From positions 124,001 through 188,000 of the forward strand of contig JAGNKX010000009.1 in assembly GCA_017999915.1 (NCBI GenBank): a DNA stretch of 64,000 bases, given 5' to 3'. How positions within the stretch are numbered: position 1 is the first letter of the stretch; each line of letters opens with the position of its first letter. The stretch comes from Spirochaetota bacterium (GTDB lineage: Bacteria; Spirochaetota; UBA4802; UBA5550). Below the pieces are notes generated by a model. The model was not told the origin of the DNA and made no database searches. It worked only from the letters and a program-made list of their open reading frames with translations. This document shows positions 10,679 to 50,447 of this stretch, piece by piece. The translations under genes were made by a program, and so were the position numbers.

Positions 10679-11596
10679 CTACACGATCTCGAAGCCGCCG
10701 AAGAAGGAGCGTATTCGGCCCATCCTCTCCCGGTCGATCCAGCCCCGCATGTCCGCGGTGCCGGCTGCGGCGCGGCCCAGTATTTCGTTCTTTTCAAACC
10801 AGAGTGGATTGTTCTGCAGCAGGCCCACCCTGCGCGCGCCCTGCTCCCTCAGAAAAGCGGCGATGGCGGAAAGGTTTTCATCCGTGGCCGTGCGGCCCGG
10901 GATGAGGGGCACCCGGGGCAGCACGGGTATCCCGCCATCCAGGAAGGCGCCGTGCAGTCTCCTGAAATTCTCCAGTATCACGTCATTGGGCCGGCCGCAG
11001 AGGCGGCGGTGCTCGTCCGGGTCGATTATCTTGATATCAAAAAAAATCATCTCCAGGTGCGGATAGATACGCTCCATGAAAGCGTCGCGGTTGAAGTGGC
11101 CGCAGGTTTCCAGGAGCACGGCGATGCCGCTCTTCCGGAGCTCGCCGGCCAGGCGCGCGGTGAAGTCCATGAACAGGGTCGGCTCTCCCCCTGAAAGGGT
11201 GACGCCGCCGCCGGAATTCGCAAAGAAGGGGATGTCTTTCTCCGCGATCCGGACGATCTCCTCCACGGACATCGCCTGTCCCACCGCGGACAGGGCGCCG
11301 GAGGGACAGGCGTCGGCGCAGGCCATGCAGAGGGAGCACTTGCCCCGGTCGATAAAATAGGGGTTCTTACGATCCAGCGCCTTTTCCGGGCAGAGGCCGA
11401 CGCAGGTATCGCAGGCGACGCACTTTTTGCCTTCGAAGGAAAGCTCGATCTCCCGCCGCTGGCTCTCCGGGTTGTGGCACCATTCGCAGGAGAGGGGGCA
11501 CCCCTTGAAAAAGACCACGGTGCGGATCCCCGGGCCGTCGTCCAGGGAATTCCCTTTTATTTCGAAGATGAGAGGAGCGGGTACTGTCGTATTCAT
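10679..11596 (-). CDS. Glycyl-radical enzyme activating enzyme (radical SAM, PflA-like)
   Basis: 305 residues. The radical-SAM motif C-x3-C-x2-C is in FFKGCPLSCEWCHNPESQ (~30-47). The insert typical of activases for the non-PFL glycyl-radical enzymes follows, with two 4Fe-4S motifs (CVACDTCVGLCP and CSLCMACADACP, ~58-105). GGGVTLSGGEPTLF is the SAM-binding strand. It should use SAM to place the glycyl radical on a partner enzyme. No glycyl-radical enzyme is adjacent; the only one in the window is at 20576-23539, 9 kb away on the same strand, and is the probable partner. It converges on the chemoreceptor with only 10 bp between stops. Confidence 0.9.
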   Translation of the reverse strand: MNTTVPAPLIFEIKGNSLDDGPGIRTVVFFKGCPLSCEWCHNPESQRREIELSFEGKKCVACDTCVGLCPEKALDRKNPYFIDRGKCSLCMACADACPSGALSAVGQAMSVEEIVRIAEKDIPFFANSGGGVTLSGGEPTLFMDFTARLAGELRKSGIAVLLETCGHFNRDAFMERIYPHLEMIFFDIKIIDPDEHRRLCGRPNDVILENFRRLHGAFLDGGIPVLPRVPLIPGRTATDENLSAIAAFLREQGARRVGLLQNNPLWFEKNEILGRAAAGTADMRGWIDRERMGRIRSFFGGFEIV

Positions 11597-15859: not shown

Positions 15860-16750
15860 CTACATGAGCCGTCTGCTGATAAGCGGCTCCAGGGAGGCCA
15901 GCGGCTTTCCCCTATGGAAGATGGTGAGCCTGCCCGTGCTTTCGGAAACGACAACGGACACGGCCGCGGTTTCAAGCGTGATCCCGGCACCAGCGCGGTG
16001 CCTCGCCCCGAGTCCCCGGAATGAGCTCGACTTCTTTCCTCCCGCATCGAGATGGCGCCCCGCCGCCTCAACTTTTCCGTCGGCAGAAACCACAATCGCC
16101 CCATCGAGCTTGGCGAGCTCCTTGAGACTCTCCACGACCTCGGGCCGCGAGATCATCCTTTCTTTCTTATCATAGCCCCTGAACGGATTAAAGACCGCCT
16201 GGTGCGAATGCTTCATCACCGTATTGGAATCCCCTATCACGAAAATCGTGCCGACGGGTTTCCCTTCCCTGCCCAGGGCCCCCACATCGAGGGCAATGTC
16301 GATCACGGCCATGATCGTATGGAAAAAACCGGTGTCAAACAGCGGTTTCACTTCGAACGGAAATTCCTCGCTCCACGAGAGTGAAAGATCATGTATCGTA
16401 ACGGTATCGAGATGGCTTTTGCCCGATGGCCCCAGGACGCAGACAATCCTGTCCTCCGGCGTGATAACCCCGTCGTAAACCCCCTGGAGAAAGGCGTACT
16501 TTATGCGGGAAAAGCGGCTCTGGTTGCCCGGCCAGTTCCTGATCACCCCGGAGGCCTTTTTCGCAAGCGCCTTTTCGCTAAAGGCCAGGGCGCGCGGAAC
16601 CACGACCGCCATTCGGCTGTCTCCGTAAAATTTCTGCCGTGAAAACCATTTGCAGTCCGATACGGTATCGAGAAAAATGAATATATGCCCGCACCCGGCC
16701 TTTTCGGCGATACCGATCGCGCTTTCCACCATGACGCTCCGCTGGTCCAT
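15860..16750 (-). CDS. Diadenylate cyclase, DacZ-like (DisA_N domain)
   Basis: 296 residues. The C-terminal ~140 residues hold the diadenylate cyclase signatures: LDGAIVVSADGKVEAAGRHL (DGA motif) and FRGLGARHRAGAGITLETAA (RHR motif), then VSVVVSESTGRL. The N-terminal ~150 residues are an alpha/beta domain that resembles the pyruvate-kinase C-terminal-like domain found in archaeal DacZ enzymes, rather than DisA helices or CdaA membrane segments. It should make c-di-AMP from two ATP in the cytoplasm. The start is ambiguous: ATG 16750 follows GGAGGATTG closely; TTG 16753 and ATG 16732 are alternatives. Confidence 0.82.
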   Translation of the reverse strand: MDQRSVMVESAIGIAEKAGCGHIFIFLDTVSDCKWFSRQKFYGDSRMAVVVPRALAFSEKALAKKASGVIRNWPGNQSRFSRIKYAFLQGVYDGVITPEDRIVCVLGPSGKSHLDTVTIHDLSLSWSEEFPFEVKPLFDTGFFHTIMAVIDIALDVGALGREGKPVGTIFVIGDSNTVMKHSHQAVFNPFRGYDKKERMISRPEVVESLKELAKLDGAIVVSADGKVEAAGRHLDAGGKKSSSFRGLGARHRAGAGITLETAAVSVVVSESTGRLTIFHRGKPLASLEPLISRRLM

Positions 16751-16998
16751 CAATCCTCCAAACAGGGGCAGTATGCATACATCACTGAATTATGTAAATT
16801 ATTTAACCGGATGAACCGTTACAGGCGGGTAATATTTTGAGAACCCCACAATAGGATCATTGATCTAACGGTATGAGGCTTGAATGCGCCCAAGGGGGAC
16901 AGTATAAAAGTGCTTTTAATTCCGGCAGTCCCCTGATACAATAGCTCAGCCTGACGGTGTCATATCATCCATTATAATAAAGTATTGGAGCATGCACT

Positions 16999-20575: not shown

Positions 20576-23539
20576 TCACACCCCGTACTCCGCCCGCTCG
20601 ATCAGCTCGATCTGCATCTCCCGGTTGAGAGTCACGAAATAGGCGTTGTAGCCCGATATGCGCACGATGAGGTTCCGGTAGTTCTCCGGGTGGGCCATGG
20701 CGTCGCGCAGGACCGCCGAGGAGACCACGTTCATCTGCATCTGCATCCCCCCCAGGTCGAAGTAGGTCCTCACGTAGGAGAACATGTTGTTCACCATGGC
20801 CTCGTGGGTGTCGCTCGGGCCCGGCACGATCTTCACGTTGAAGGCGATGTTGTTGTTCATGGTCTTCGGGTCGAGGCGCGCCACGTCGCGGATGTTGTCC
20901 AGGAGGCTCTTCGACGCGTTCGGCTCCGGCGTGAGACCCGGCGTGAAGGCCTTGCCCGCGAGCCTTCCCGACGGGAGGGCGCCGGTCATGTTGCCGAAAA
21001 TCACGTGGTTCGACATGGACCAGAAACCGGCCGTGTAGCGGCCTCCCCGGTAGTTCTCATGGGCGAAGTACGCGTCATGGGCGAACCGCGCCACGCGCTG
21101 GGCCATGGCCAGGGCCTCTTCGCTGCCTGAACCGAAGCGCGGCACCCGGCTCATCACCATGGCATGCACCTGGGGATATCCCTCGTAGTTCGCGTCGATG
21201 GCCTCCTTGAATTCCGGGAGCGTGATCCTCTTCTCTTCGTACACCAGTGTCTTCACCGCCATGAGAGAATCGGTGATGTCCGCCAGGCCGATGCAGGCCG
21301 CGCCGGAACTGTTGTAGGTGGCCCCGCCCTTTGTCACGTCGACTCCCTTTGTAATGGGTCCCTCGATCAGAGCCGATAGCAGGGGCGTCGGCCGCAGGTA
21401 CTGGTGGGCCTTCCCGAGCATGTTGTTGTATTCGATGGAATTGTCGATGAGGAACTTGAACTGTTTCGTGAAGGCGCCGTAGAAATCCTCGAAGGTCCCG
21501 AAGCTCCCGGTCTCAACCGCGCCGGTGGCGGGCCCCGCCTTCCAGTTCATGAGGGGATGGCGGCCGTCGTTCAGGGCCATCTCCAGGGCCGCCACCATGT
21601 TCATCATCATGCAGTTGGTGTGGCCGATGTGCCTGCCCGACAGGGTGGGCTCCACGCACCCGGTGGCGGACCAGTCGCGCAGGTGCCGGGGATCGTAGTT
21701 GAACTCCTCCAGGGAGGCCATGACCGCCGTGTCGCTGTGGAGGGACGGTGTGGCCGTCGTCATCAGGTTAACCTCGCAGAGGCGCTTCAGGTAAGCCTCG
21801 CTGTTCTTCTCCCGGTTGAAGCGGGCGTTCACGTTGGGGTCCCTGATGCTGAGCATCTCCGTCACCTTCAGGAAGATGTAGGTCATGTCACAGACCGCGT
21901 CCCCGCCGTCCGGCGTGACGCCGCCCAGGGTGATGGCCTGGTCCGAGGAGCTGCCGCCGAAGAGGTAGTTGCCGATGTCCGGCACCAGGGGGAGATGGTC
22001 GGTGCAGCGCATGTAGAAGCACCCGACGAGATCGATGGCCCTCCTGACACAGGCGTCGCGCTCCTCCCTGGTCGCGCACTTCGCCATGTCCGCCTCGAAA
22101 TAGGGCTGGAACCACTGGTCCATCCTTCCCAGGGAGAGGCCGGCGTTGGTGCTCTCCATGTGGAGCCCCACCCACCCGATCCACGCCGCGTTGACAGCCT
22201 CGTCCAGGGTGTCGCAGGGCCGCTCCGACACCTTCACGCAAATCTCGGCAAGGCGGAGCAGCTCCTTTTTCCGCGCGGGGTCCTTCTCCGCGCCAGCCTC
22301 CAGCGCCGCCTGCTTCGACAGGTTCTTCGCATAGGCTGCAAGGCCCTCCAGGCAGAGGATCATGGCCTCCAGTAGATTTTTCTTGGCGCTATCAGATGGC
22401 GGCGTCTTCGCCATCTCGGCGCGGATCTCATCGATATATCCGCTTGTCCCGACCCTGAGGAGCTTCGGGAAATCGGCTATGGTGTGGGACAGGGCCACGG
22501 TCTTCCAGAGGAAATACACGGCAAAGCGCTCGTCGATGCGCTGGCACAGGGGATTGCCGTACTCCTTCCGCACCCACTCCCGGAAATTGCGATCCACCCA
22601 GAAGGGGAACACCTCCCGGTGCAGTATCCGCCTCGACTCCTCCGAGATAGCGTAGGAGTTGAGCTCCCGGTCCCCCACGTTGCCGAGCTCGCTCCAGAGC
22701 ATGGTGCCCACCGCGTCAGGATAGATGATGACGCCGATCTCCCTCATGGTGGAGGTGCCGGCCACAAGGTCGTCCTTCCTGATGATGGGCATTCGGTTCT
22801 CCATCATGTACCTATAGGCATGGGCCTGGCGGAGCTCCGGCGGCCACTCGGCGCCGTCCATTTTCTTCTCGAAGCCGTTCTCGCGAAACCACCGGGTCAT
22901 GAGCAGCGCCCGCTCGTGGCAGATCTCCGGCTTGGTGGTGAAATGCAGGTCCAGGAATTTCTTCAGGCGGGGAAAATCGGCCAGCGAATATTCGGGAAGA
23001 TACTGGTCCTCAAGGCACTTGACGCCGGGGTCCCGGGCCGGGGCCTTCAGCATCCCCTCGCGCACCTTCTTCTCCGCCGGCGCAGGCCTGATGTCACTCT
23101 TCATGGAATCGGCCAGCTTCTGGCGGCCGTGGTCCCGGATCAATTTATCCTGCATCTTTTTATGCTTTTTATACAGGAGCTGCGAGATCAGAAAATTGAA
23201 GACATTGGGATACACGAAGTTCCCCTCGATGCGGAGGCGGCCCTTGATTAAAAATAAAACCATTTCATTGGGGGGCAGATTGATCGCCTCCCTGATGGAG
23301 GCGCCGTCCTTGAAGACCAGGACCGAATCAGCGTCGGCGGGAATGCCCTTCATGACCGTGACCGATCCATCCCGAAACCTGATGGCGCTCTCCACGGCTG
23401 CGTCCTCGGTGCGCACCCCGATGGTGAAGTTAATCCATCCGTCATCGCTTCCCAGGAGGGCCCGCTTCGTAGGCTGCCGGTTGTAGATCGCCGCCATCAT
23501 GTGGAGCAGGAACCTGACAAGGATGTTGGTGGAATTCAT
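20576..23539 (-). CDS. Glycyl-radical enzyme with N-terminal SCP2-like lipid-binding domain
   Basis: 987 residues, against ~780-850 for most family members. The start at 23539 has GAGG eight bases upstream. Residues ~1-130 resemble an SCP2 sterol-carrier domain (SAIRFRDGSVTVMKGIPADA then DSVLVFKDGASIREAI and LFLIKGRLRIEGNF). A ~40-residue linker leads to the PFL-like barrel from ~170 (KPEICHERALLMTRWFRENG). The thiyl Cys lies in SATGCVEPTLSGRHIGHTNC near 640, and the glycyl loop is VRISGYNAYF near the C-terminus. GCVEP, with its Glu, is the pattern of dehydratases and choline lyase rather than of pyruvate formate-lyase. Substrate unknown; the lipid domain suggests something hydrophobic. The activase at 10679 is the likely partner. 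Confidence 0.88.
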   Translation of the reverse strand: MNSTNILVRFLLHMMAAIYNRQPTKRALLGSDDGWINFTIGVRTEDAAVESAIRFRDGSVTVMKGIPADADSVLVFKDGASIREAINLPPNEMVLFLIKGRLRIEGNFVYPNVFNFLISQLLYKKHKKMQDKLIRDHGRQKLADSMKSDIRPAPAEKKVREGMLKAPARDPGVKCLEDQYLPEYSLADFPRLKKFLDLHFTTKPEICHERALLMTRWFRENGFEKKMDGAEWPPELRQAHAYRYMMENRMPIIRKDDLVAGTSTMREIGVIIYPDAVGTMLWSELGNVGDRELNSYAISEESRRILHREVFPFWVDRNFREWVRKEYGNPLCQRIDERFAVYFLWKTVALSHTIADFPKLLRVGTSGYIDEIRAEMAKTPPSDSAKKNLLEAMILCLEGLAAYAKNLSKQAALEAGAEKDPARKKELLRLAEICVKVSERPCDTLDEAVNAAWIGWVGLHMESTNAGLSLGRMDQWFQPYFEADMAKCATREERDACVRRAIDLVGCFYMRCTDHLPLVPDIGNYLFGGSSSDQAITLGGVTPDGGDAVCDMTYIFLKVTEMLSIRDPNVNARFNREKNSEAYLKRLCEVNLMTTATPSLHSDTAVMASLEEFNYDPRHLRDWSATGCVEPTLSGRHIGHTNCMMMNMVAALEMALNDGRHPLMNWKAGPATGAVETGSFGTFEDFYGAFTKQFKFLIDNSIEYNNMLGKAHQYLRPTPLLSALIEGPITKGVDVTKGGATYNSSGAACIGLADITDSLMAVKTLVYEEKRITLPEFKEAIDANYEGYPQVHAMVMSRVPRFGSGSEEALAMAQRVARFAHDAYFAHENYRGGRYTAGFWSMSNHVIFGNMTGALPSGRLAGKAFTPGLTPEPNASKSLLDNIRDVARLDPKTMNNNIAFNVKIVPGPSDTHEAMVNNMFSYVRTYFDLGGMQMQMNVVSSAVLRDAMAHPENYRNLIVRISGYNAYFVTLNREMQIELIERAEYGV

Positions 23540-23579
23540 GGAAGTACCTCTATTTTCAGAATCAGATTCATAATCCCTA

Positions 23580-23726
23580 TCATTGCGAGGAGCCCCTCGA
23601 CAGGCTCGGGATAAACTCCGCGACGAAGTATGCCTCGACAGTTCGACAGGCTCACTGCATCGCTCCGCTTGGCAACCAGCTGTACCCCGAGCGAAGTCGA
23701 GGGGCGCTTCGCTGTGCTCGCGATGA
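23580..23726. repeat. Long palindromic intergenic element
   Basis: TCATTGCGAG at the left end mirrors CTCGCGATGA at the right (9/10). Inside, GCCCCTCGACAGGCTCGGG pairs with CCCCGAGCGAAGTCGAGGGGC. It could fold into a large branched stem. Elements of this look, starting CATTGCGAGGAG and ending CGCGATGAC, are dispersed in many bacterial genomes; only this copy is in the window. The following 290 bases to 24021 are AT-rich and otherwise empty. Confidence 0.65.
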
Positions 23727-24021
23727 CACAACCAATAAAAACAGCTTTCCTACTAAATCACTGATATAATAATTATACCCAAGGCTAAATATTAATCGAC
23801 CGTAATTATAAAGTCATACTATTTTTTGCACAAGTTAAAATTTCATTCTCCCCTCGATAGGTACCTGCCTGAAGATTTCAGCCTTACGATTCAAAAGTCT
23901 TGACAAAAAACTAAACCGGGTTGTAATAATAGATAAAAGACGATTATGGTGAAGTTACTTTCATCCTTTTCGTCTTTTCCCCTTCCAAATAAATATATAT
24001 ATAAAGTCTTCCGGAGGTCTC

Positions 24022-25164
24022 ATGAAATCTCAATTAAAACCGATTTCCATACTACTGCTGTGCGTCGCCCTTGGATTCATCTCATGCGATAAGGAAAAAA
24101 AGGACGACACGAAAAATCTCTTCATGGCGCTCCTTCTCAACTCACCGCGGGTCTATGGCCAGTCCGGCAACTTAACCACCAGTGATGAGAACAAGGGCGG
24201 AGTGACTCCCAACAGTCTCAATAGTCCCTATGGTGTTGCCGTCGACGCCGGCGGGGTCTATATTACGGATTCGGGCAACAACCGCGTGTTGTATTATGCC
24301 TGGTCAAGCACCACGGCGACCCGCGTTTACGGCCAGCCGGATTTTGTCAGCAGTACATCCAATAACGGCGGTGTAAGCGCTACCAGTTTGAGTATTCCCC
24401 GCGGCATTGCGGTCGATGCCGGCGGTGTGTATATTGCGGACAGCCCCAACAACCGCGTGTTATACTATGCCGGCACAAGCACCACGGCGACCCGCGTCTA
24501 TGGCCAGCCCAATTTTACGAGTAACACCGCCAACAGGGGTGGAGCGAACCCGGACGCAGACAGTTTATCCGGTCCCTACGGTGTAGAGGTCGATGCGAGT
24601 GGGGTGTATATTACCGAATATTGGAACAATCGCGTACTCTATTATCCAGGCACAAGCACCACGGCAATCCGTGTCTATGGACAGGGCGGGGACTTTACCA
24701 CCGCTGTTGAAAATAAGGGCGGGTTGAGTGCAAACAGCTTAAGACGCCCCTATGGCGTGGCGGTCGATGCAGGCGGGGTGTACATTGCCGATTCGCAAAA
24801 CAGCCGTATGCTCTACTATGAAGGTACAAGTACAACTGCGACCCGCGTCTATGGACAACCAAATTTTACCAGCAACACTGTCAATAACGGCGGGATAGGC
24901 GCGGGCAGCTTAAATACCCCCTCTGACGTATTTGTTGCCGCCGGCGGGATCTATATCTCAGATGGCGTCAACCATCGCGTGTTATATTACGCAGGCACAA
25001 GCACCACGGCTACCCGCGTCTATGGCCAGCCCGACTTTATCAGTAATACTGCAAATAACGGCGGGATCAGCGCAACCAGCTTAAATTGGCCCTATGGCCT
25101 GGTTCTCGGCTGGGGAAGGCTGTTTATCGCGGATTACAGCAACAACCGGGTGATCATGTATTAA
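24022..25164 (+). CDS. NHL-repeat lipoprotein
   Basis: 380 residues. Signal peptide ending in the lipobox LGFISC (Cys ~25), then a charged linker and six tandem units of ~56 residues. Each unit has the pattern RVYGQPxFxSNTxNNGG, SLNxPxGVAVDAGGVYIADS and NNRVLYYAGTSTTAT. They are NHL-type blades and together would form one beta-propeller. The units are very alike at the DNA level too, showing recent tandem duplication. It is probably anchored to a membrane and faces the periplasm or outside. GGAGG precedes the start. Ligand unknown. Confidence 0.9.
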   Translation: MKSQLKPISILLLCVALGFISCDKEKKDDTKNLFMALLLNSPRVYGQSGNLTTSDENKGGVTPNSLNSPYGVAVDAGGVYITDSGNNRVLYYAWSSTTATRVYGQPDFVSSTSNNGGVSATSLSIPRGIAVDAGGVYIADSPNNRVLYYAGTSTTATRVYGQPNFTSNTANRGGANPDADSLSGPYGVEVDASGVYITEYWNNRVLYYPGTSTTAIRVYGQGGDFTTAVENKGGLSANSLRRPYGVAVDAGGVYIADSQNSRMLYYEGTSTTATRVYGQPNFTSNTVNNGGIGAGSLNTPSDVFVAAGGIYISDGVNHRVLYYAGTSTTATRVYGQPDFISNTANNGGISATSLNWPYGLVLGWGRLFIADYSNNRVIMY

Positions 25165-25185: not shown

Positions 25186-26340
25186 TCAGAGGGCCGCGTT
25201 GACGATGCCGGCCAGCTCAGCGGCCGTGAGCTGCACCGGGTTGGCCTTCATGCTGCTGGCCTTCCGGGCCTGCTCCACGATGGCGCTCACATGGTCCGCG
25301 GTGACGCCGTAGCGCGACAGCCCCGGTATGGCCAGGTCCGCGCAGAGGGACCCGAGCCAGTCGACAGCGTCCTCCACGGCGCCATGGGGGTCGCCGGTGA
25401 GGATCGCCGCCGCTTCCCGGAACTTTTCCAAAACTTCGGCCGATCCGTGGTTGCGGGCCCCGCGCCAGTTGGCGAGGAACACCCGGGGAAGCAGTACCGC
25501 GCACACCGCGCCATGGGGCGATGCGGGGAACATGCCGCCGATCACAGCGGCCAGGCCGTGGACCGCTCCGAGGCCGGCGTTGGCCAGGGCCATGCCGCTC
25601 ATGAGGGAAGCCAGGGCCATGTCCCTGCGCGCGTCCCGATCGCTCCCGTCCTCATAGGCGATGTGAAGGGACGATGCGGCGAGGACCATGCCCTCGCGGC
25701 AGAGGGAGTCCGTCAGGGCATTGGCCCGGGACGACAGGAAAGGCTCGATGAGCTGGGTCAGGGCATCGAGGCCGCAGGCGGCGGTCTCCTCCGGCGGAAG
25801 CGAATAGGTCAGCTCCGGGTCCACCACCGTGACCCGGGGGATGATATGAAGACTCCGAAGGCTTACCTTGATCCGGCGCTCCGGCGACGCGATCACGGAA
25901 TTTTTGGTCACCTCCGAGCCGGTCCCGGCGGTGGTGGGCACGGCGATGCAGGGGATCCCGGGCCGCTCCAGGGGCCGGGCCCCGCCGATCACCTCCAGGT
26001 GGTCCATGAGGTCGCCGCCGTTGGTAACGAAGGCCGCCACTGCCTTGGCCGCATCGATGACGCTGCCGCCGCCGATACCGATAACTATCGCAGGCGAGAA
26101 CTTCCGCGCCGCCTCGATCCCTTCCCGCACTATGTCCACGGTGGGCTCGCCCCGTACCGGGAACAGCTCAACGTGGATGCCGGCGGCGCCGAGGGACTTG
26201 ACCAGGCCGTCGTGGCGCCCCGGTGTCTTGCCGGTGACCACGAAGGCCCTGTTCCCATAGGACGACGCCATCTCCGGCACCTGGCGTACGGTCCCCTCGC
26301 CGAAGAGGACCCGGCCGGCCGTGGAAAACTCGAAGGTCAT
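25186..26340 (-). CDS. Iron-containing alcohol dehydrogenase
   Basis: 384 residues, the family's usual length. The start at 26340 is chosen because it overlaps the upstream gene's stop by 4 bases (ATGA) and opens on [19 protein letters not shown]-binding [17 protein letters not shown] (~90) and [17 protein letters not shown] (~135) are present. The metal-binding histidines lie in [14 protein letters not shown] and [13 protein letters not shown] (~255-285). It should interconvert an alcohol and an aldehyde, or reduce maleylacetate-like substrates, in the cytoplasm. It is translationally coupled to the monooxygenase-fold protein upstream. Confidence 0.92.
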
Positions 26341-26651
26341 GCCGTGGCCCAGCCGTTGTCGTCGGGATACACTCCATAATATTTCACGCTGCTCCGCGGC
26401 TCCGCCATCATGGGGGCCACGGCATCGCGCCATGCAGCGTAATGGGCCGTTTCCTTGTGGCGCGCCGTGGCGTCGCTGTCGCGATAGACCTCCACCAGTA
26501 CAAACCGCGTCGGGTCGTCCTCTTTCTGGACCACATCGAACCGGGCTATCCCCGGCTCGCGCACGCTCTCGGAGGCGTTCTGTATGGAGGCCATCTTGAA
26601 TTCTTCGATACGCTCTGGTTTTACGTGGACATTGACATGGACGATAAGCAT
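26337..26651 (-). CDS. Antibiotic-biosynthesis-monooxygenase (ABM/LsrG-like) domain protein
   Basis: 104 residues. [20 protein letters not shown] opens the ferredoxin-like ABM fold. [34 protein letters not shown] is the central strand-helix pattern with the usual His. The start at 26651 has GGGAGG six bases upstream. Such proteins form dimers and act on quinones or autoinducer-like compounds; some only assist a partner enzyme. Its stop overlaps the alcohol dehydrogenase start, so the two probably act in one step. Confidence 0.85.
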
Positions 26652-26852
26652 CGGGATCCTCCCTGCATGATTGGTATTTCCATCATCACAACAGTACGGC
26701 AATGCAAAGCCACGGCAAAAAGACGGTTTAATAATTGACAAAGGGAAATTATAACGGCACTGTAACTGGACTTTTTTCAACTATATACGCTGTCAATCCA
26801 GGTAACAATTGTATTGATCCCAGGTCAAATATCAACATATTTTTTATGTCCT

Positions 26853-43573: not shown

Positions 43574-44869
43574 TTACTTAAGCCGCGCATCCAGGTGCTT
43601 TGAAAGCCTCTTGCCGAGGGACACCACGGTCCAGACCACGGGCGCGCCCAGGGACGACGGGAACACGCTGGCGTCGCAGCAGTAAAGGTCCTTGATCTGC
43701 GTCTCCAGGTTGGTGTCCAGCACATGGCCGATGCGGCAGGTCGCGGACGGATGGGCGCCGGCGGCCTTCATCGGATAGACGCTGCTCTCCTTGGCGCCGG
43801 CCTTCTTGAAGATCTTCGTGATGATCTCCACGCCCTTGTCGATCTTCTTCTGGTCGTTGGCCGTGAGGGGCTTGGAAAAGGCCCTCCCCTTTTTGATCTC
43901 GCCGGTGGTATCGTCCTGCACCTTCACCATGATGCTGGTATACCGCATGAAGTTGGCCATCTTCAAAAGATGCGTGGGTCCCGACAGCGCGATAATCCCC
44001 AGGAAGAGCGCCCAGTTCGGGGCCACCGGCAGGATGCAGAGGCCGTCCTCGTCATAGTGCTCGATGGTACCCACGCTCATCGGCGTGGCCCCCAGGGAGT
44101 TGGTGCCGGGGATGATCCCCTGCACGAAGGAGAGCCAGTCGCAGCAGAGGCCCTTGCCCGCCTCCTCGATGCCGGCGCCCCGGAGCATATGCACGTTGTT
44201 CAGGCCCCCCGAGGAGAGGACCACCGCCTTGCCGTAGTACCGCTCGCCGTTCTTCAGGGCAACGCCCACGGCCCTGCCGTTCTCCACGATCACGTCCTTC
44301 ACGTTGGCGTGGAGCTTCAGGTCCGCGCCGCCGGCCACCGCCTCGTCGCCGAAGACGCGGCCGGTCCACTTCGCCCCGGTCTTGCACCCGAGCATGCAGT
44401 TGCCGGAGCCGCTGCACTTGCCCGGATCGATGAACTTCTCCACCTTCTGCCAGTGGTAGCCCAGGCTGTTGGCCGCCTCCAGCAGGCGCATGTTGTTCTC
44501 GCCGATCAGCTCGTCCGGCATCGGCTGGATCCACATCTCGCTCTTCGCCTCGGCCGCCTCTTTAGCAAGGTCGATCCCCAGGGGGGCGAATATCTTCTTG
44601 GGCGGCGGCACCGCGCACCCGGCGGCTATGTTCGAGGCGCCGCCGTAGTTGTTCACGAAAATGACTATATCCTTGTAGTTGCGCAGCAGGGTCGGCAGGT
44701 CGATCATGGTCGCCACCGTGGCCGTATTGCCCAGCCACTCCATGCGGCCGCCCTTCTCGAGGAGAAGGACCTTCTTTCCCTTCTTCGTCATCTCCCGGGC
44801 CACGGTGCAGCCGGCGGCCCCGCTCCCCACTACGATCACGTCGTATTGCTTCTTCTGTTCCTTTTTCAT
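43574..44869 (-). CDS. GMC-type FAD oxidoreductase, copy 1
   Basis: 431 residues. DVIVVGSGAAGCTVAREMTK KGKKVLLLEKGG is the FAD-binding motif; GGASNIAAGCAVPPPKK and NSLGYHWQKVEKF follow. CSGSGNCMLGCKTGAKWT (~152) has Cys residues that may hold a cluster or disulfide. SSGGLNNVHMLRGAG closes the GMC core. The C-terminal HPSATCRIGHVLDTNL and DLYCCDASVFPSSLGAPVVWT match the GMC_oxred_C domain. Substrate unknown. It follows ferredoxin B by 13 bp (same operon), so electrons may go to or from the Fe-S partner. It differs from copy 2 (48225) only at the two ends. Confidence 0.88.
   Translation of the reverse strand: MKKEQKKQYDVIVVGSGAAGCTVAREMTKKGKKVLLLEKGGRMEWLGNTATVATMIDLPTLLRNYKDIVIFVNNYGGASNIAAGCAVPPPKKIFAPLGIDLAKEAAEAKSEMWIQPMPDELIGENNMRLLEAANSLGYHWQKVEKFIDPGKCSGSGNCMLGCKTGAKWTGRVFGDEAVAGGADLKLHANVKDVIVENGRAVGVALKNGERYYGKAVVLSSGGLNNVHMLRGAGIEEAGKGLCCDWLSFVQGIIPGTNSLGATPMSVGTIEHYDEDGLCILPVAPNWALFLGIIALSGPTHLLKMANFMRYTSIMVKVQDDTTGEIKKGRAFSKPLTANDQKKIDKGVEIITKIFKKAGAKESSVYPMKAAGAHPSATCRIGHVLDTNLETQIKDLYCCDASVFPSSLGAPVVWTVVSLGKRLSKHLDARLK
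43605..44847 (-). repeat. 1.24-kb duplicated DNA block, copy 1
   Basis: Bases 43605-44847 correspond to 48256-49498 at a constant offset of 4651. Reading them side by side I found no difference. Translations of this block in the other frames are identical too, so synonymous sites are also identical. Outside these limits the sequences diverge at once. Confidence 0.88.
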
Positions 44870-44882
44870 TGTATGGCTCCTT

Positions 44883-45794
44883 TTAGTTTCTCAGCGCGTA
44901 TGCGGATTTTCTGGCGTGTTCCCTGACCAGATCCAGGTCGAGGGGTCTGGATTTATCAGGATCGGCATACAGCCGTATGGCTTTATTGGGACAATTCTCG
45001 ACACAAAGTTCGCAGCCATGACATTTTCCCTTGTCATAGGACCAGCCCCGGCCATTGATGCTGACAGCGCCGAAATGGCAGGTCTGTACGCAGGTGCCGC
45101 ATTTCCTGCATTTTTTGATATCATGTTCCACGGAATAGCCGGAGACCTCTGTCATGTAGGTTTTCGGGTCGATTTTCCTGGTCAGGGCGGTTGCCCTGAG
45201 GGATACGCAGGTGTCGGGGTGACAGTTGCAGATGACCCCGGTGCTGCCGCCGGTGGCCACTTTGAAAAATGCCTGGGTGATATACCCTTTCTTCCTGAAA
45301 GATTTTATTAGGTCCAGGGCTTCTTCCTGGGAGACCACACGGGGATTGTATTTTTTGCACCGGTCGAGCCAGAACTTGCCGGTGCCGCTGCCGACAAAGA
45401 GGCATGAATTAATGTGTTCATCCTTATCGCCGAGGGCCTTCTTGCAGGGACAGTCCATGACAACGATGAATTCAGGATCGGTGAAGAGGATCTTTCGTGC
45501 GTACTTGAACGGAACGATCTTTTTATTCTCTTCCCCATCAAAATTGATGTTTTCATTAAGTTCAAATATCTTTTTAGTGTCCGCCGCTGACAGGACCTTG
45601 CTGTGGTAGCGGCTGAAAATGAAGTTACCCGCATATTTCAGAGGCTTCAGCCATGTCAGGTACTCGAGAGGCTTGAAAGCCATAGAAACGGTTTTGACAT
45701 AAGGGTAATACCATGCGAAATATAGGTAATTATGGATTGCCCTGTCGATCCGCCAGCCATGCTTTTTCATTAATAATTTTGTCGATTCTCTCAT
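44883..45794 (-). CDS. Polyferredoxin-like 4Fe-4S protein B (canonical)
   Basis: 303 residues. A hydrophobic aromatic N-terminus (AIHNYLYFAWYYPYVKTVSM) is followed by the Cys region VMDCPCKKALGDKDE, NSCLFVG and GSTGVICNCHPDTCVSL. Two canonical ferredoxin motifs close it: CRKCGTCVQTCHFGA and CHGCELCVENCPNKA. It is the first gene of the operon with GMC copy 1. GGAGGGGG precedes the ATG. Two regulon-1 operators lie 57-146 bp upstream, and TetR1 is divergent. It resembles ferredoxins C and D much more than A. Confidence 0.86.
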   Translation of the reverse strand: MRESTKLLMKKHGWRIDRAIHNYLYFAWYYPYVKTVSMAFKPLEYLTWLKPLKYAGNFIFSRYHSKVLSAADTKKIFELNENINFDGEENKKIVPFKYARKILFTDPEFIVVMDCPCKKALGDKDEHINSCLFVGSGTGKFWLDRCKKYNPRVVSQEEALDLIKSFRKKGYITQAFFKVATGGSTGVICNCHPDTCVSLRATALTRKIDPKTYMTEVSGYSVEHDIKKCRKCGTCVQTCHFGAVSINGRGWSYDKGKCHGCELCVENCPNKAIRLYADPDKSRPLDLDLVREHARKSAYALRN

Positions 45795-45850
45795 GCTCTG
45801 ACCCCCTCCAAATTTGGTTTCATAAACTGATGGAAAAATTGGTTAAATTG

Positions 45851-45866
45851 ACCTGATGTGTCATGT
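45851..45866. promoter_or_regulatory. Operator, degenerate copy (regulon 1, ferredoxin B)
   Basis: ACCTGATGTGTCATGT matches the perfect palindrome at 13 of 16 positions and shares with 40424 the same two changes (GTGTCATG half). It is 74 bp from the perfect copy. Confidence 0.65.
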
Positions 45867-45924
45867 CTAATATTTGAAATTAAATTTCTTTATAAACATT
45901 ATTGATATTTATAAAAATAAATGT

Positions 45925-45940
45925 ACCTGACGCGTCAGGT
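45925..45940. promoter_or_regulatory. Operator, perfect palindrome (regulon 1, ferredoxin B)
   Basis: ACCTGACGCGTCAGGT, identical to 40493-40508. The 743-bp divergent gap (45795-46537) is AT-rich. Beyond these sites, no gene or further dyad was seen in it. Confidence 0.7.
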
Positions 45941-46537
45941 CTATTTTAATACTACAATTTCAACTATATAAGTCAATAAAAATTATAACAACCAGACGGT
46001 TGAACAGTAATTAATTGTTATTTAATCTTTTCGTAAAAATTTAATTATACATTTTTTACAATATATTCATATTAAGATTTTTAAATACTGATATTCTTTG
46101 AATAATACATTAGTTTATAACACTATCACTTTAAACATAAGTAAAAAAGGCCATACAGGATCAGTAAAGCATCTATACCAGCCATGATGTAAATTATAAC
46201 CGGCTCTATGATTATTAAGAAAATTGGGAATCATGGATGCAGTGCTGTTCATCACTTTAGAGCTCCGGTATAAAAAACAGGTAACCTGCAAACCGGATTA
46301 TATACATCAATTTTCGGCTAACAGATGTTAGTATTTATATAAAAAGCATCCTGGTCTTGTAAAAAGCGTCATATCATTAATATGCAATAATGTCACAATT
46401 ATAATAAAGCTGCTCCATTGGGGCCACATCAAACTTTTTCTAATTGAAATGTCTGGCATAGCTTTATATACTGCCTCATGTCAGTGGCACAATCGATAAA
46501 GACAATATACAATTCTGTCCAGATCCAGGGAACAACG

Positions 46538-47167
46538 ATGCAGCTTAAAAAGAACGAAATTCGCAAACAACGTCTTATCGAAGCGGCAAAGAAATTATTT
46601 TCGGAAAAAGGCTTTTACAGCACCTATGTCGATGAAATCATTAAGGAAGCCGGCGTCGGCAAAGGCACCTTTTACAGAAATTTCAAGAACAAGGAGGATA
46701 TTTTCGTATCGCTTCTCTTCATGTTCCTCAATGACTGGCAGAGTTCCGTTTCCATCGGCATAGATAAAAACATATCCACGTCCTATATCGATTACATCAA
46801 AAAAGTCGCGCTGGAAAGCTTTATCTTTTTTAAAAAAAACGAAGAGCTGTCAAACCTCTACTTTCGCATAGCCCCCGGCCTGAGCGCAATCATCGAGCCC
46901 TATTTAAAGAATTTCGAAATCCAGATGCTCGATTACATCATCAAAGATCTTGAAAAAGCGCGCGACCTCGGATATCTCGACAAATCCTTCAATGTCAAAC
47001 TGGCGGCGAATATCGTGGCAGGGGCTTTTTTCCGGGTTCATTATTACTATTTTACCCTTAAAAGCGACGAAGCGGCATCGTCGAACATTGAAGAGCTGGT
47101 GAACGAGTTTTTCAACATGCTGTTTTTCGGCGTCCTCTACAAGAACAGGCAGCCTGCGCAGTCCTGA
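46538..47167 (+). CDS. TetR-family regulator 1 (paralogue of TetR2)
   Basis: 209 residues. The start at 46538 has AGGGA eight bases upstream; an earlier ATG at 46478 adds a tail unlike the family. The helix-turn-helix is RKQRLIEAAKKLFSEKGFYS then YVDEIIKEAGVGKGTFYRNF and KNKEDIF. The ligand domain has a segment shared with TetR2 (LRIGPGL type: YFRIAPGLSAIIEPYLKNFE) and LAANIVAGAFFRVHYYYF. It is divergent from ferredoxin B, whose promoter has ACCTGACGCGTCAGGT. No matching site is visible directly before its own start. Confidence 0.88.
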   Translation: MQLKKNEIRKQRLIEAAKKLFSEKGFYSTYVDEIIKEAGVGKGTFYRNFKNKEDIFVSLLFMFLNDWQSSVSIGIDKNISTSYIDYIKKVALESFIFFKKNEELSNLYFRIAPGLSAIIEPYLKNFEIQMLDYIIKDLEKARDLGYLDKSFNVKLAANIVAGAFFRVHYYYFTLKSDEAASSNIEELVNEFFNMLFFGVLYKNRQPAQS

Positions 47168-47185
47168 ATCAGCACAAAATGCCCC

Positions 47186-47206
47186 GGTAAGGCTTCCTGC
47201 CTTACC
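47186..47206. terminator. Hairpin after TetR1, no T-run
   Basis: GGTAAGGC, TTCCT and GCCTTACC form a perfect 8-bp stem 18 bases past the stop. There is no T-tract on either strand, so terminator function is uncertain. Confidence 0.45.
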
Positions 47207-47259
47207 AGGGCTTCAATCGTTACATCCTATGTGGGGTTCTACAGGGCAATATGCCCGAC

Positions 47260-48147
47260 TCATGCCATCACTTTTTCTTTTATTCTGTCAAGGTCCAGCG
47301 GAAGCGGCTTGCCGGAATCGACGTACAATTCCAGAGCTCCATTAGGGCAGCTCTCAACGCAGAGCTCGCATCCCCTGCACTCAGCGCTGCCGTATTCCCG
47401 TTTCCCGCCGTTAAATGTAATCGAGCCAAAATGGCAGACCGTGGCGCAGGTGCCGCATTGTTTGCATTTCTTCGGATCGTGTTTCACGGAATAGCCCGAT
47501 GTGGTCGACACGGGCACCACGCCGTCGCCCAGCTTTTTGGTGAGCCGAGTCGCGATAAGGCTGAGGCAGTAATCGGGATGGCAGGTACATATGACGCCGG
47601 TGCTCCCGCCGGTGGCCACCTTGAAAAACGACTGGTTTATGTATTTCTTTTTTCTCAGCCGGGAAATTATCTCCAGCGCCTCCTTCTGGGTCACCCTTCG
47701 CGCGTTATACTTCTTGTTATCCAGCCAGAATTGAGCGGCCTTGCCGACCATGAAGCATGAGTTCAGGTCTTCCTGGGGGGCGCCGGTCGATTTTTTACAG
47801 GGACAATCCATCACCGCGATGAATTCTGGTTCCTGGAATATTATCTTCGTCGCATACTTATATGGTATAATCTGTTTGTTTTCATCTGAAATAAGACGAA
47901 GGTCCTGGTTCAGCTCGAATATCTTTCTCGTGTCCTTCATCGACAGGACTTTTGAATGATAGCGATGAAAGATGAAATTGGCCACCGGTTTCAGCGGCTT
48001 GAACCACATGAAGCGCTTCAGGGCGAGAACTCCGGTGGTGAGCGTTTTTATGTAAGGATAATAGTATCGAAAATAGATATAATTATGGATAGCCCTGTCA
48101 TAGCGGCGGCCATGCTTCTTAAAAATATCTTTCGTCGATTGTTTCAT
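47260..48147 (-). CDS. Polyferredoxin-like 4Fe-4S protein C (canonical)
   Basis: 295 residues. Same layout as B: HGRRYDRAIHNYIYFRYYYP near the N-terminus, VMDCPCKKSTG, NSCFMVG, GSTGVICTCHPDYCLSL. Two canonical ferredoxin motifs follow (CKQCGTCATVCHFGS and CRGCELCVESCPNGA). It is the last gene of the operon D-GMC2-C, separated from GMC2 by a hairpin with a T-rich tail (48167-48215), so it may be expressed at a lower level. GGAGG precedes the ATG. Confidence 0.86.
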   Translation of the reverse strand: MKQSTKDIFKKHGRRYDRAIHNYIYFRYYYPYIKTLTTGVLALKRFMWFKPLKPVANFIFHRYHSKVLSMKDTRKIFELNQDLRLISDENKQIIPYKYATKIIFQEPEFIAVMDCPCKKSTGAPQEDLNSCFMVGKAAQFWLDNKKYNARRVTQKEALEIISRLRKKKYINQSFFKVATGGSTGVICTCHPDYCLSLIATRLTKKLGDGVVPVSTTSGYSVKHDPKKCKQCGTCATVCHFGSITFNGGKREYGSAECRGCELCVESCPNGALELYVDSGKPLPLDLDRIKEKVMA

Positions 48148-48166
48148 GGTTCCTCCCGTCAGATAA

Positions 48167-48215
48167 TGCCAAAAACGACAAAGATGGCCAATCCCACTGT
48201 CAGGGATCGGCCATC
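48167..48215 (-). terminator. Intra-operon hairpin with T-rich tail between GMC2 and ferredoxin C
   Basis: GATGGCCAATCCC (48183-48195) pairs with GGGATCGGCCATC (48203-48215) at 12 of 13 positions. On the minus strand the hairpin is followed by TTTGTCGTTTTTGG. It looks like a partial terminator that lowers downstream expression. Confidence 0.55.
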
Positions 48216-48224
48216 CGGTATTAC

Positions 48225-49520
48225 CTATTTAAGCCTTTTATCCAGGTGCTTCGCGAGCCTCTTGCCGAGGGACACCACGGTCCAGACCACGGGCGCGCCC
48301 AGGGACGACGGGAACACGCTGGCGTCGCAGCAGTAAAGGTCCTTGATCTGCGTCTCCAGGTTGGTGTCCAGCACATGGCCGATGCGGCAGGTCGCGGACG
48401 GATGGGCGCCGGCGGCCTTCATCGGATAGACGCTGCTCTCCTTGGCGCCGGCCTTCTTGAAGATCTTCGTGATGATCTCCACGCCCTTGTCGATCTTCTT
48501 CTGGTCGTTGGCCGTGAGGGGCTTGGAAAAGGCCCTCCCCTTTTTGATCTCGCCGGTGGTATCGTCCTGCACCTTCACCATGATGCTGGTATACCGCATG
48601 AAGTTGGCCATCTTCAAAAGATGCGTGGGTCCCGACAGCGCGATAATCCCCAGGAAGAGCGCCCAGTTCGGGGCCACCGGCAGGATGCAGAGGCCGTCCT
48701 CGTCATAGTGCTCGATGGTACCCACGCTCATCGGCGTGGCCCCCAGGGAGTTGGTGCCGGGGATGATCCCCTGCACGAAGGAGAGCCAGTCGCAGCAGAG
48801 GCCCTTGCCCGCCTCCTCGATGCCGGCGCCCCGGAGCATATGCACGTTGTTCAGGCCCCCCGAGGAGAGGACCACCGCCTTGCCGTAGTACCGCTCGCCG
48901 TTCTTCAGGGCAACGCCCACGGCCCTGCCGTTCTCCACGATCACGTCCTTCACGTTGGCGTGGAGCTTCAGGTCCGCGCCGCCGGCCACCGCCTCGTCGC
49001 CGAAGACGCGGCCGGTCCACTTCGCCCCGGTCTTGCACCCGAGCATGCAGTTGCCGGAGCCGCTGCACTTGCCCGGATCGATGAACTTCTCCACCTTCTG
49101 CCAGTGGTAGCCCAGGCTGTTGGCCGCCTCCAGCAGGCGCATGTTGTTCTCGCCGATCAGCTCGTCCGGCATCGGCTGGATCCACATCTCGCTCTTCGCC
49201 TCGGCCGCCTCTTTAGCAAGGTCGATCCCCAGGGGGGCGAATATCTTCTTGGGCGGCGGCACCGCGCACCCGGCGGCTATGTTCGAGGCGCCGCCGTAGT
49301 TGTTCACGAAAATGACTATATCCTTGTAGTTGCGCAGCAGGGTCGGCAGGTCGATCATGGTCGCCACCGTGGCCGTATTGCCCAGCCACTCCATGCGGCC
49401 GCCCTTCTCGAGGAGAAGGACCTTCTTTCCCTTCTTCGTCATCTCCCGGGCCACGGTGCAGCCGGCGGCCCCGCTCCCCACTACGATCACGTCGTATTCC
49501 TTTCTTTGCTCCTTCTTCAT
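48225..49520 (-). CDS. GMC-type FAD oxidoreductase, copy 2
   Basis: 431 residues, identical to copy 1 at 43574 except at the ends (start MKKEQRKEYD instead of MKKEQKKQYD, end RLAKHLDKRLK instead of RLSKHLDARLK). FAD motif, Cys-rich segment and GMC C-terminal domain as there. It lies between ferredoxin D (21 bp upstream) and ferredoxin C (77 bp downstream), giving an operon of two Fe-S proteins around one flavoenzyme. GGAG precedes the ATG. Confidence 0.88.
   Translation of the reverse strand: MKKEQRKEYDVIVVGSGAAGCTVAREMTKKGKKVLLLEKGGRMEWLGNTATVATMIDLPTLLRNYKDIVIFVNNYGGASNIAAGCAVPPPKKIFAPLGIDLAKEAAEAKSEMWIQPMPDELIGENNMRLLEAANSLGYHWQKVEKFIDPGKCSGSGNCMLGCKTGAKWTGRVFGDEAVAGGADLKLHANVKDVIVENGRAVGVALKNGERYYGKAVVLSSGGLNNVHMLRGAGIEEAGKGLCCDWLSFVQGIIPGTNSLGATPMSVGTIEHYDEDGLCILPVAPNWALFLGIIALSGPTHLLKMANFMRYTSIMVKVQDDTTGEIKKGRAFSKPLTANDQKKIDKGVEIITKIFKKAGAKESSVYPMKAAGAHPSATCRIGHVLDTNLETQIKDLYCCDASVFPSSLGAPVVWTVVSLGKRLAKHLDKRLK
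48256..49498 (-). repeat. 1.24-kb duplicated DNA block, copy 2
   Basis: Counterpart of 43605-44847 at offset 4651. Edges fall inside the gene, not at its borders, as expected for gene conversion between paralogues. Confidence 0.88.
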
Positions 49521-49541
49521 GGTAATGCTCCAGATAAAAAA

Positions 49542-50447
49542 TTAATTAGGCGTGACAAATTCTTTTTTCACGATATCAATATCAAGGGGAACCGTTTTGG
49601 CCGCATCCCTGTAGAAGGAGAGGGCCTTTTCCGGGCAGCGCTCCACGCAGAGCTCGCAGCCGATACAGGCATCCTTGTCGTAGATCCATTTTTTGGAGGC
49701 CTTATCCACCTTGATCGCTCCAACGGGACACACCTCTTCACAGGTGCCGTGCCATTTGCATTTCTTCTCCTTGAACTCAACCGAGTATCCAGAATCCGCG
49801 TTCATGGTGAACTTATTGTCGAATTTCTTCGCGAATTTCGTGGCCAGGAGGGACACGCAAGTGTCGGGGTGGCAGTTGCAGATGACTCCGGTGCTGCCGC
49901 CGGTGGCCACCTTGAAGAACGCCTGGGTGAGATAACCCATCCCCCTGAATTTTTCTATCAGCGCCAGGGCATCCTTCTGGCTGATCTTCTTCGCGTTGTA
50001 CTTCTTCCCATGCTCCAGCCAGAAAGATGAGAGCCCCTTTCCGACTGCAAGGCAGGACAATATATTCTCATCCTTATCGCCCAGCGCGACCTTGCAGGGA
50101 CAGTCCATGACCGCGATATGCTCCGGTTCCATGAACAGGATCTTGTGGGCATATTTAAAGGGCACAATCTTTTTGTTCTGGGCGGATATGGCCGATATAT
50201 TCTCGTTCAGCGTGAATATCTTTTTTGTATCGCCGAAGGATAGAACTTTAGAGTGATACCGCGACAGGGCCATTGAGAGGATCAGGTTGAGGGGCTTGAA
50301 CCATGAAAGATACTTTGATAGGTATTTAAAGAGATAATAAACAAATTTCACATAGGGATGATAGAACTTGAAATAAATATAATTATGAATGAACCGATCA
50401 AATCTCCATCCATGCTTCTTCATCATAATCTTTGTTGATGCTTTCAT
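49542..50447 (-). CDS. Polyferredoxin-like 4Fe-4S protein D (His variant)
   Basis: 301 residues. IHNYIYFKFYHPYVKFVYYL, VMDCPCKVALGDKDEN, LSCLAVG and GSTGVICNCHPDTCVSL repeat the layout of B. The first ferredoxin motif is CKWHGTCEEVCPVGA, where the second Cys is His as in A. The second, CIGCELCVERCPEKA, is canonical. It opens the operon D-GMC2-C. TetR2 is divergent and two dyads lie between them. Overall it resembles B more than A, so the shared His is either convergent or anciently retained. Confidence 0.86.
   Translation of the reverse strand: MKASTKIMMKKHGWRFDRFIHNYIYFKFYHPYVKFVYYLFKYLSKYLSWFKPLNLILSMALSRYHSKVLSFGDTKKIFTLNENISAISAQNKKIVPFKYAHKILFMEPEHIAVMDCPCKVALGDKDENILSCLAVGKGLSSFWLEHGKKYNAKKISQKDALALIEKFRGMGYLTQAFFKVATGGSTGVICNCHPDTCVSLLATKFAKKFDNKFTMNADSGYSVEFKEKKCKWHGTCEEVCPVGAIKVDKASKKWIYDKDACIGCELCVERCPEKALSFYRDAAKTVPLDIDIVKKEFVTPN

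Follow-up and report, generated by a model that had tools for sequence, protein, structure and literature searches.

The window analyzed here is a stretch of 64,000 nucleotides from a Spirochaetota bacterium (assembly GCA_017999915.1, contig JAGNKX010000009.1, positions 124,001 to 188,000 of the forward strand). On its minus strand, from 20576 to 23539, the ORF call and Pfam define a gene for a 987-aa protein that starts with an ATG at 23539 and has a GAGG upstream. The protein contains a PFL-like glycyl-radical enzyme (GRE) barrel at residues 201-849 (20993-22939, minus strand; Pfam E 2.7e-165, with a Foldseek match to 5i2g) and a Gly_radical domain at residues 865-969 (20633-20947, minus strand; Pfam E 7.7e-25), and with a catalytic cysteine in the barrel and a C-terminal Gly-radical loop it belongs to the GRE superfamily of oxygen-sensitive radical enzymes. 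The cysteine loop reads GCVEP (residues 627-631) and holds a CXE motif, C628-V629-E630, with the thiyl residue Cys628 and Glu630 (21650-21658, minus strand). The radical glycine, Gly963 (20651-20653, minus strand), assigned from the sequence and its relatives, lies in RISGYNAYF (residues 960-968). Cys628 and Glu630 are invariant in 82 relatives and Gly963 is kept in essentially all of them, and the first-pass annotation was correct in describing both sites as intact. His352 (22484-22486, minus strand), which in alignments takes the position of HypD His160 and of the diol-dehydratase His, is kept in 81 of the 82.

The protein is also unusually long, as had been noticed at first reading, exceeding the solved GREs (776-850 aa) by about 140-200 residues. 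Since the solved enzymes begin at about query residue 190, some 185 N-terminal residues are extra. Immediately upstream of the gene, positions 23570-23745 resemble a dispersed GC-rich repeat (CGACTTCGCTCGGGG...), and because of this repeat-like region the ORF appears to be 1051 aa, longer than the gene.

The first-pass annotation had proposed that the extension is SCP2-like and could be checked with the Pfam SCP2 profile (PF02036). For the window protein alone, that profile gives no match above the gathering score; among 64 aligned homologous N-termini, it matches 30 individually (best E 5e-5), so the profile recognizes the domain in relatives and not in the window sequence itself. No other Pfam family matches more than two of the 64. 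When PDB sequences were searched with a profile of the domain, only rabbit SCP2 was matched, and weakly (E of 1). An AlphaFold2 model built from the 64-sequence alignment has a pLDDT of 84, and the pTM of 0.91 is a value that alone does not fix the placement of the SCP2 domain relative to the barrel. Foldseek matches the predicted domain best to UbiJ (UbiJ-SCP2; E 3.8e-6) and further to A. fulgidus SCP2, to the SCP2 domains of alkylsulfatases and to human SCP2. With VIA-align, its best match is the SCP2 domain of the alkylsulfatase Pisa1 (Z 14.0, rmsd 2.1, 105 residues), and human SCP2-like 1ikt scores Z 12.9. Together with the Pfam matches of the homologues, these predictions assign an SCP2 fold, and a putative lipid-carrier domain, to residues 1-122 (23174-23539, minus strand), as had been expected of the extension. 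The model and the identity among relatives place the domain's C-terminal helix and a variable linker at residues 123-187 (22979-23173, minus strand); in the model the helix spans residues 123-146 and pLDDT is low near 150-160.

The alkylsulfatases SdsA1 and Pisa1 are likewise enzymes fused to an SCP2-fold domain and act on long-chain alkyl substrates, but their core is a metallo-hydrolase of unrelated chemistry and their SCP2 domain is C-terminal. UbiJ-SCP2 and the stand-alone SCP2 proteins share the fold and the Pfam signature but are separate carriers, with no fusion to a radical enzyme. SCP2 carriers look common in the genome from which the window derives, since it has eleven SCP2-domain matches above the cut-off, several of them as tandem copies or as parts of larger proteins.

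To place the gene in its surroundings, we compared the window with L009, a locus carrying an 86% identical GRE orthologue. There, a small ABM-domain protein, an iron-containing alcohol dehydrogenase (Fe-ADH), the GRE and, directly behind it, a radical-SAM activase that matches TIGR02494 follow one another on a single strand. The window has the same four genes on one strand, with about 9 kb of other genes between GRE and activase. The ABM-domain gene (26337-26780, minus strand; PF03992) heads the run and the Fe-ADH gene (25186-26433, minus strand; PF00465) lies upstream of the GRE; the starts of both are probably internal, the L009 orthologues being 112 and 388 aa long. An NHL-repeat-like ORF (24022-25164, plus strand) sits between GRE and Fe-ADH. 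The cognate activase (10679-11596, minus strand) is 79% identical to that of L009, and its presence in the window rules out a loss of the activase. Elsewhere in the window, 15860-16753 (minus strand) encodes a DacZ-like diadenylate cyclase for c-di-AMP synthesis, an enzyme of the type found in archaea and here encoded by a spirochaete-like bacterial genome. Inspection of the sequence also suggests a repeated unit, possibly a tandem duplication, at 43574-50447, with FAD-dependent oxidoreductase-like ORFs of equal length (43574-44869, 431 aa, and 48225-49520), three proteins of about 300 aa that seem to form one family, and TetR-like regulators.

Relatives were collected from GTDB-species contigs, which yielded 78 loci, most of them full length with the N-terminus included. 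In 46 loci an activase is encoded on the GRE's strand and no more than three genes away (p 9e-25), and in 20 loci a TetR regulator is. Clusters with an SDR or ADH at that distance and on that strand occur in 16 of 75 loci, and these oxidoreductases are enriched near the GRE compared with the rest of these loci (20/236 versus 6/581, p 3.5e-7). Their types in relatives are classical SDR, extended SDR (HpnA/OleD type) and Zn-ADH; a second copy in the window genome, 58% identical to the first, is preceded by a TetR gene and followed by a Zn-ADH gene. A Pfam and NCBIfam scan of the conserved neighbors found generic dehydrogenases only and no substrate-specific family, and most loci had no conserved lipid-metabolism gene beside the GRE. 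Such a neighborhood is consistent with an enzyme that yields an aldehyde or ketone, or with one that takes an alcohol as substrate, and it names no pathway.

The relatives come from Desulfobacterota, Spirochaetota, Actinomycetota, Chloroflexota, Myxococcota, SAR324 and other phyla, which rules out an extension peculiar to the window genome. The SCP2 domain occurs in each of the 82 relatives sampled at about 48% identity or higher. Likewise, among 296 genomes of the window's phylum, every match of at least 48% identity whose alignment extends to the N-terminal end has it, and the next match below (L130, 38% identical, 813 aa) begins at residue 189 and lacks the domain. A tree of the GRE core groups the 82 proteins in a single clade (support 0.99), to which L130 is sister. 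Beyond that clade, the closest GREs (about 38% identity) do not have the domain. Nor is the extension a non-lipid one that is common among known GREs. Copy number reaches four in the complete isolate genome of Desulfoluna limicola and in a Desulfosudis MAG, and three in another Desulfobacteraceae MAG. To judge from these sequences, the SCP2-GRE fusion defines a large, multi-phylum and previously unnamed enzyme family of anaerobic bacteria. The first-pass annotation had recognized neither this family nor the activase elsewhere in the window.

Other GREs were found alongside this family. In the window genome (C7:130743-133976; loci L007, L101 and L102), a 1114-aa ORF fuses a radical-SAM GRE activase (the first ~270 residues) to a GRE, and a GRE-encoding ORF nearly as long (1103 aa) occurs in a Smithella MAG (G296:C39:113124-115187). 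A second distinct GRE family, of 838 aa with a GCLEN cysteine loop (L035, 4685-7201; L066, 13994-16507; L047, 10533-13049), adjoins the SCP2-GRE in two Chloroflexi MAGs, where it has its own activase. In L047 the two GREs are near each other, and a member of this second family also occurs in the window genome (L006).

We next considered which class of GRE the core belongs to. The CXE motif is conserved among GRE eliminases, in which its Glu accepts the proton of the substrate hydroxyl, and the H160Q variant of HypD has no detectable activity (PMC7077986). By fold (Foldseek), the nearest solved structures to the window GRE are propanediol dehydratase, HypD, CutC and glycerol dehydratase, with MasD and BSS lower. 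Given its catalytic residues, the window enzyme groups by sequence with the GRE eliminases of dehydratase or lyase type, and not with the fumarate-adding hydrocarbon enzymes.

The best PDB sequence match of the window GRE is A. fulgidus PflD (AF1449, 2f3o; 377 bits), which shares the CXE motif and the His and has been suggested as an alkylsuccinate synthase (cited in PMC8163825). This match raises the alternative that the SCP2-GREs are fumarate-adding hydrocarbon enzymes of alkylsuccinate or benzylsuccinate synthase type, and the hosts do include Smithella and Desulfosudis, with AssA also present in one Smithella MAG. That AssA (G296; 1220 bits to MasD 9o8u), however, has the cysteine loop ACMSPCPTT..MRM, in which the Glu of CXE is missing, and carries an Arg where fumarate is expected to sit. 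Compared with the AssA proteins of L161 and L165, the SCP2-GREs likewise depart from the pattern of AssA, MasD and BssA, a cysteine loop devoid of that Glu and, after it, a loop with an Arg: they have GCVEP and no such Arg. Fumarate addition is therefore highly improbable, and we reject hydrocarbon activation by this route on the cysteine-loop residues. MasD and BSS are, moreover, distant in both sequence and fold, and the gene was not seen to have BSS-type beta or gamma subunits as neighbors. PflD itself differs from the SCP2-GREs in lacking the SCP2 domain and in having Asp where they have Asn642, and its own substrate is unproven.

Among the eliminases, the Roseburia inulinivorans 1,2-propanediol dehydratase (5i2a/5i2g) and glycerol dehydratase (1r8w) share GCVEP, the His at position 352 and the radical loop with the window GRE, and the barrel fold is like that of 5i2g (Foldseek E 1e-53, TM 0.92 by target). 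They differ in being only about 28-30% identical, in lacking an SCP2 domain and in having a His-Ser pair and an Asp, which we take to be their diol-binding pocket. In alignments, the His-Ser pair corresponds to Ala466-Gly467 of the SCP2-GREs and the Asp to Asn642, so that the window enzyme lacks the pocket residues of a 1,2-diol dehydratase. HypD (trans-4-hydroxyproline dehydratase, 6vxc) and CutC (choline lyase, 5fau) have the same eliminase core with CXE. HypD shares its His with the window GRE (His352) but has Asp278 at Ala466, and CutC shares its Thr502 (Thr641) but has Asp216 at His352; Asp533 takes the place of a Phe found in CutC and propanediol dehydratase. None of the curated NCBIfam eliminase subfamilies (HypD, CutC, HpsG/HpfG, PFL2-3) reaches its cut-off: TIGR01774 scores 493 against 678 and the others at most 395 against 1000-1100, HypD and CutC among them at 394-395 against 1100 and 1050. 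Beyond the catalytic residues, the predicted active site matches no characterized eliminase.

The TNxx and GLSLGR segments of the protein are CutC-like, and for one SDR that recurs in the neighborhood, 3-ketodihydrosphingosine reductase is a weak match, one of many SDRs. Both would suit a CutC-like C-N cleavage by radical elimination on an amino-alcohol lipid such as a sphingoid base. We nevertheless consider this quite improbable, given that the Asp of CutC (GGGD in CutC-like proteins) is His352 here, that the CutC Phe is Asp533 and that the SDR match is generic.

A different alternative leaves the chemistry ordinary and gives the SCP2-fold domain a structural, dimerization or membrane-docking role, so that the enzyme would be a usual GRE eliminase of a small polar substrate (a diol, an amino alcohol or a sugar derivative). 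The core clearly groups with small-molecule eliminases. Within the aligned active-site windows, Asn465, His601, Thr641 and Arg716 are polar and invariant in the 82 relatives, with Asn642 nearly so, and Trp840 is invariant in the family too; Asn465, His601, Arg716 and Asn642 hint at a defined polar head group on the substrate. SCP2 folds also occur where lipid is not the substrate, as in the Eis-type acetyltransferases, which match the predicted domain at a Z of about 7. Sequence identity to the window protein is about 40% in the SCP2 domain, 67% in the core and 29% in the linker, and this fast drift of the SCP2 domain is compatible with a loose hold on lipid and with a purely structural role as well. 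Despite that drift, however, the domain was never lost in the 82 relatives across phyla, its closest structural matches are SCP2s that bind lipids or alkyl chains, and the substrate-binding positions of propanediol and glycerol dehydratases are altered. On balance, we regard the structural role as unlikely, though it deserves to be weighed seriously.

We favor, with somewhat better than even confidence, a reading in which a lipid-carrier domain is part of a glycyl-radical eliminase, and the enzyme converts a hydrophobic alcohol or diol to an aldehyde or ketone on which a partner dehydrogenase then acts. That the substrate is hydrophobic is reasonable to infer from the SCP2 precedents (alkylsulfatases and UbiJ) and the redox neighbors. 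As its fold suggests, the SCP2 domain would take a hydrophobic or amphiphilic alcohol out of the membrane and pass it to the GRE barrel. By analogy with the GRE superfamily, the activase would place the radical on Gly963, from which it would move to Cys628. The carbinol carbon would then lose a hydrogen to the Cys628 thiyl, the hydroxyl proton would go to Glu630, which His352 would tune, and the adjacent leaving group (OH, possibly an amine) would be expelled. The resulting aldehyde or ketone may be reduced or oxidized by the partner dehydrogenase, Fe-ADH here and SDR, extended SDR or Zn-ADH in relatives. As a guess at the substrate type, we suggest a lipid vicinal diol, for example a monoalkylglycerol or a long-chain 1,2-diol; monoalkylglycerol is common in Desulfobacterota membranes.

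The first-pass annotation had held that no enzyme class is established for hydrophobic GRE substrates. This was too strong, given that alkylsuccinate and benzylsuccinate synthases are GREs that act on such substrates. To our knowledge, the characterized GRE eliminases all act on small hydrophilic molecules. A search of the open-access literature for GREs together with SCP2 or sterol carriers returned no relevant paper; subscription journals may already report the fusion. The chemistry is of a known kind, and the fusion, the clade and the pocket are not described in the searchable, open-access literature. More tentatively, and a little short of even confidence, we propose that the SCP2-fused eliminases form a new functional class of GREs, which would dehydrate or deaminate membrane-derived lipids (alkylglycerols, long-chain diols) without O2 in several anaerobic phyla and are multicopy in some sulfate-reducing Desulfobacterota. 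The family offers a concrete, expressible target with a known activase, and its four paralogues in Desulfoluna limicola are in a cultured organism. A lipid-carrier domain kept on a widespread eliminase family would extend glycyl-radical chemistry to lipids, and it might account for an oxygenase-independent breakdown of hydroxylated or ether lipids by anaerobes.
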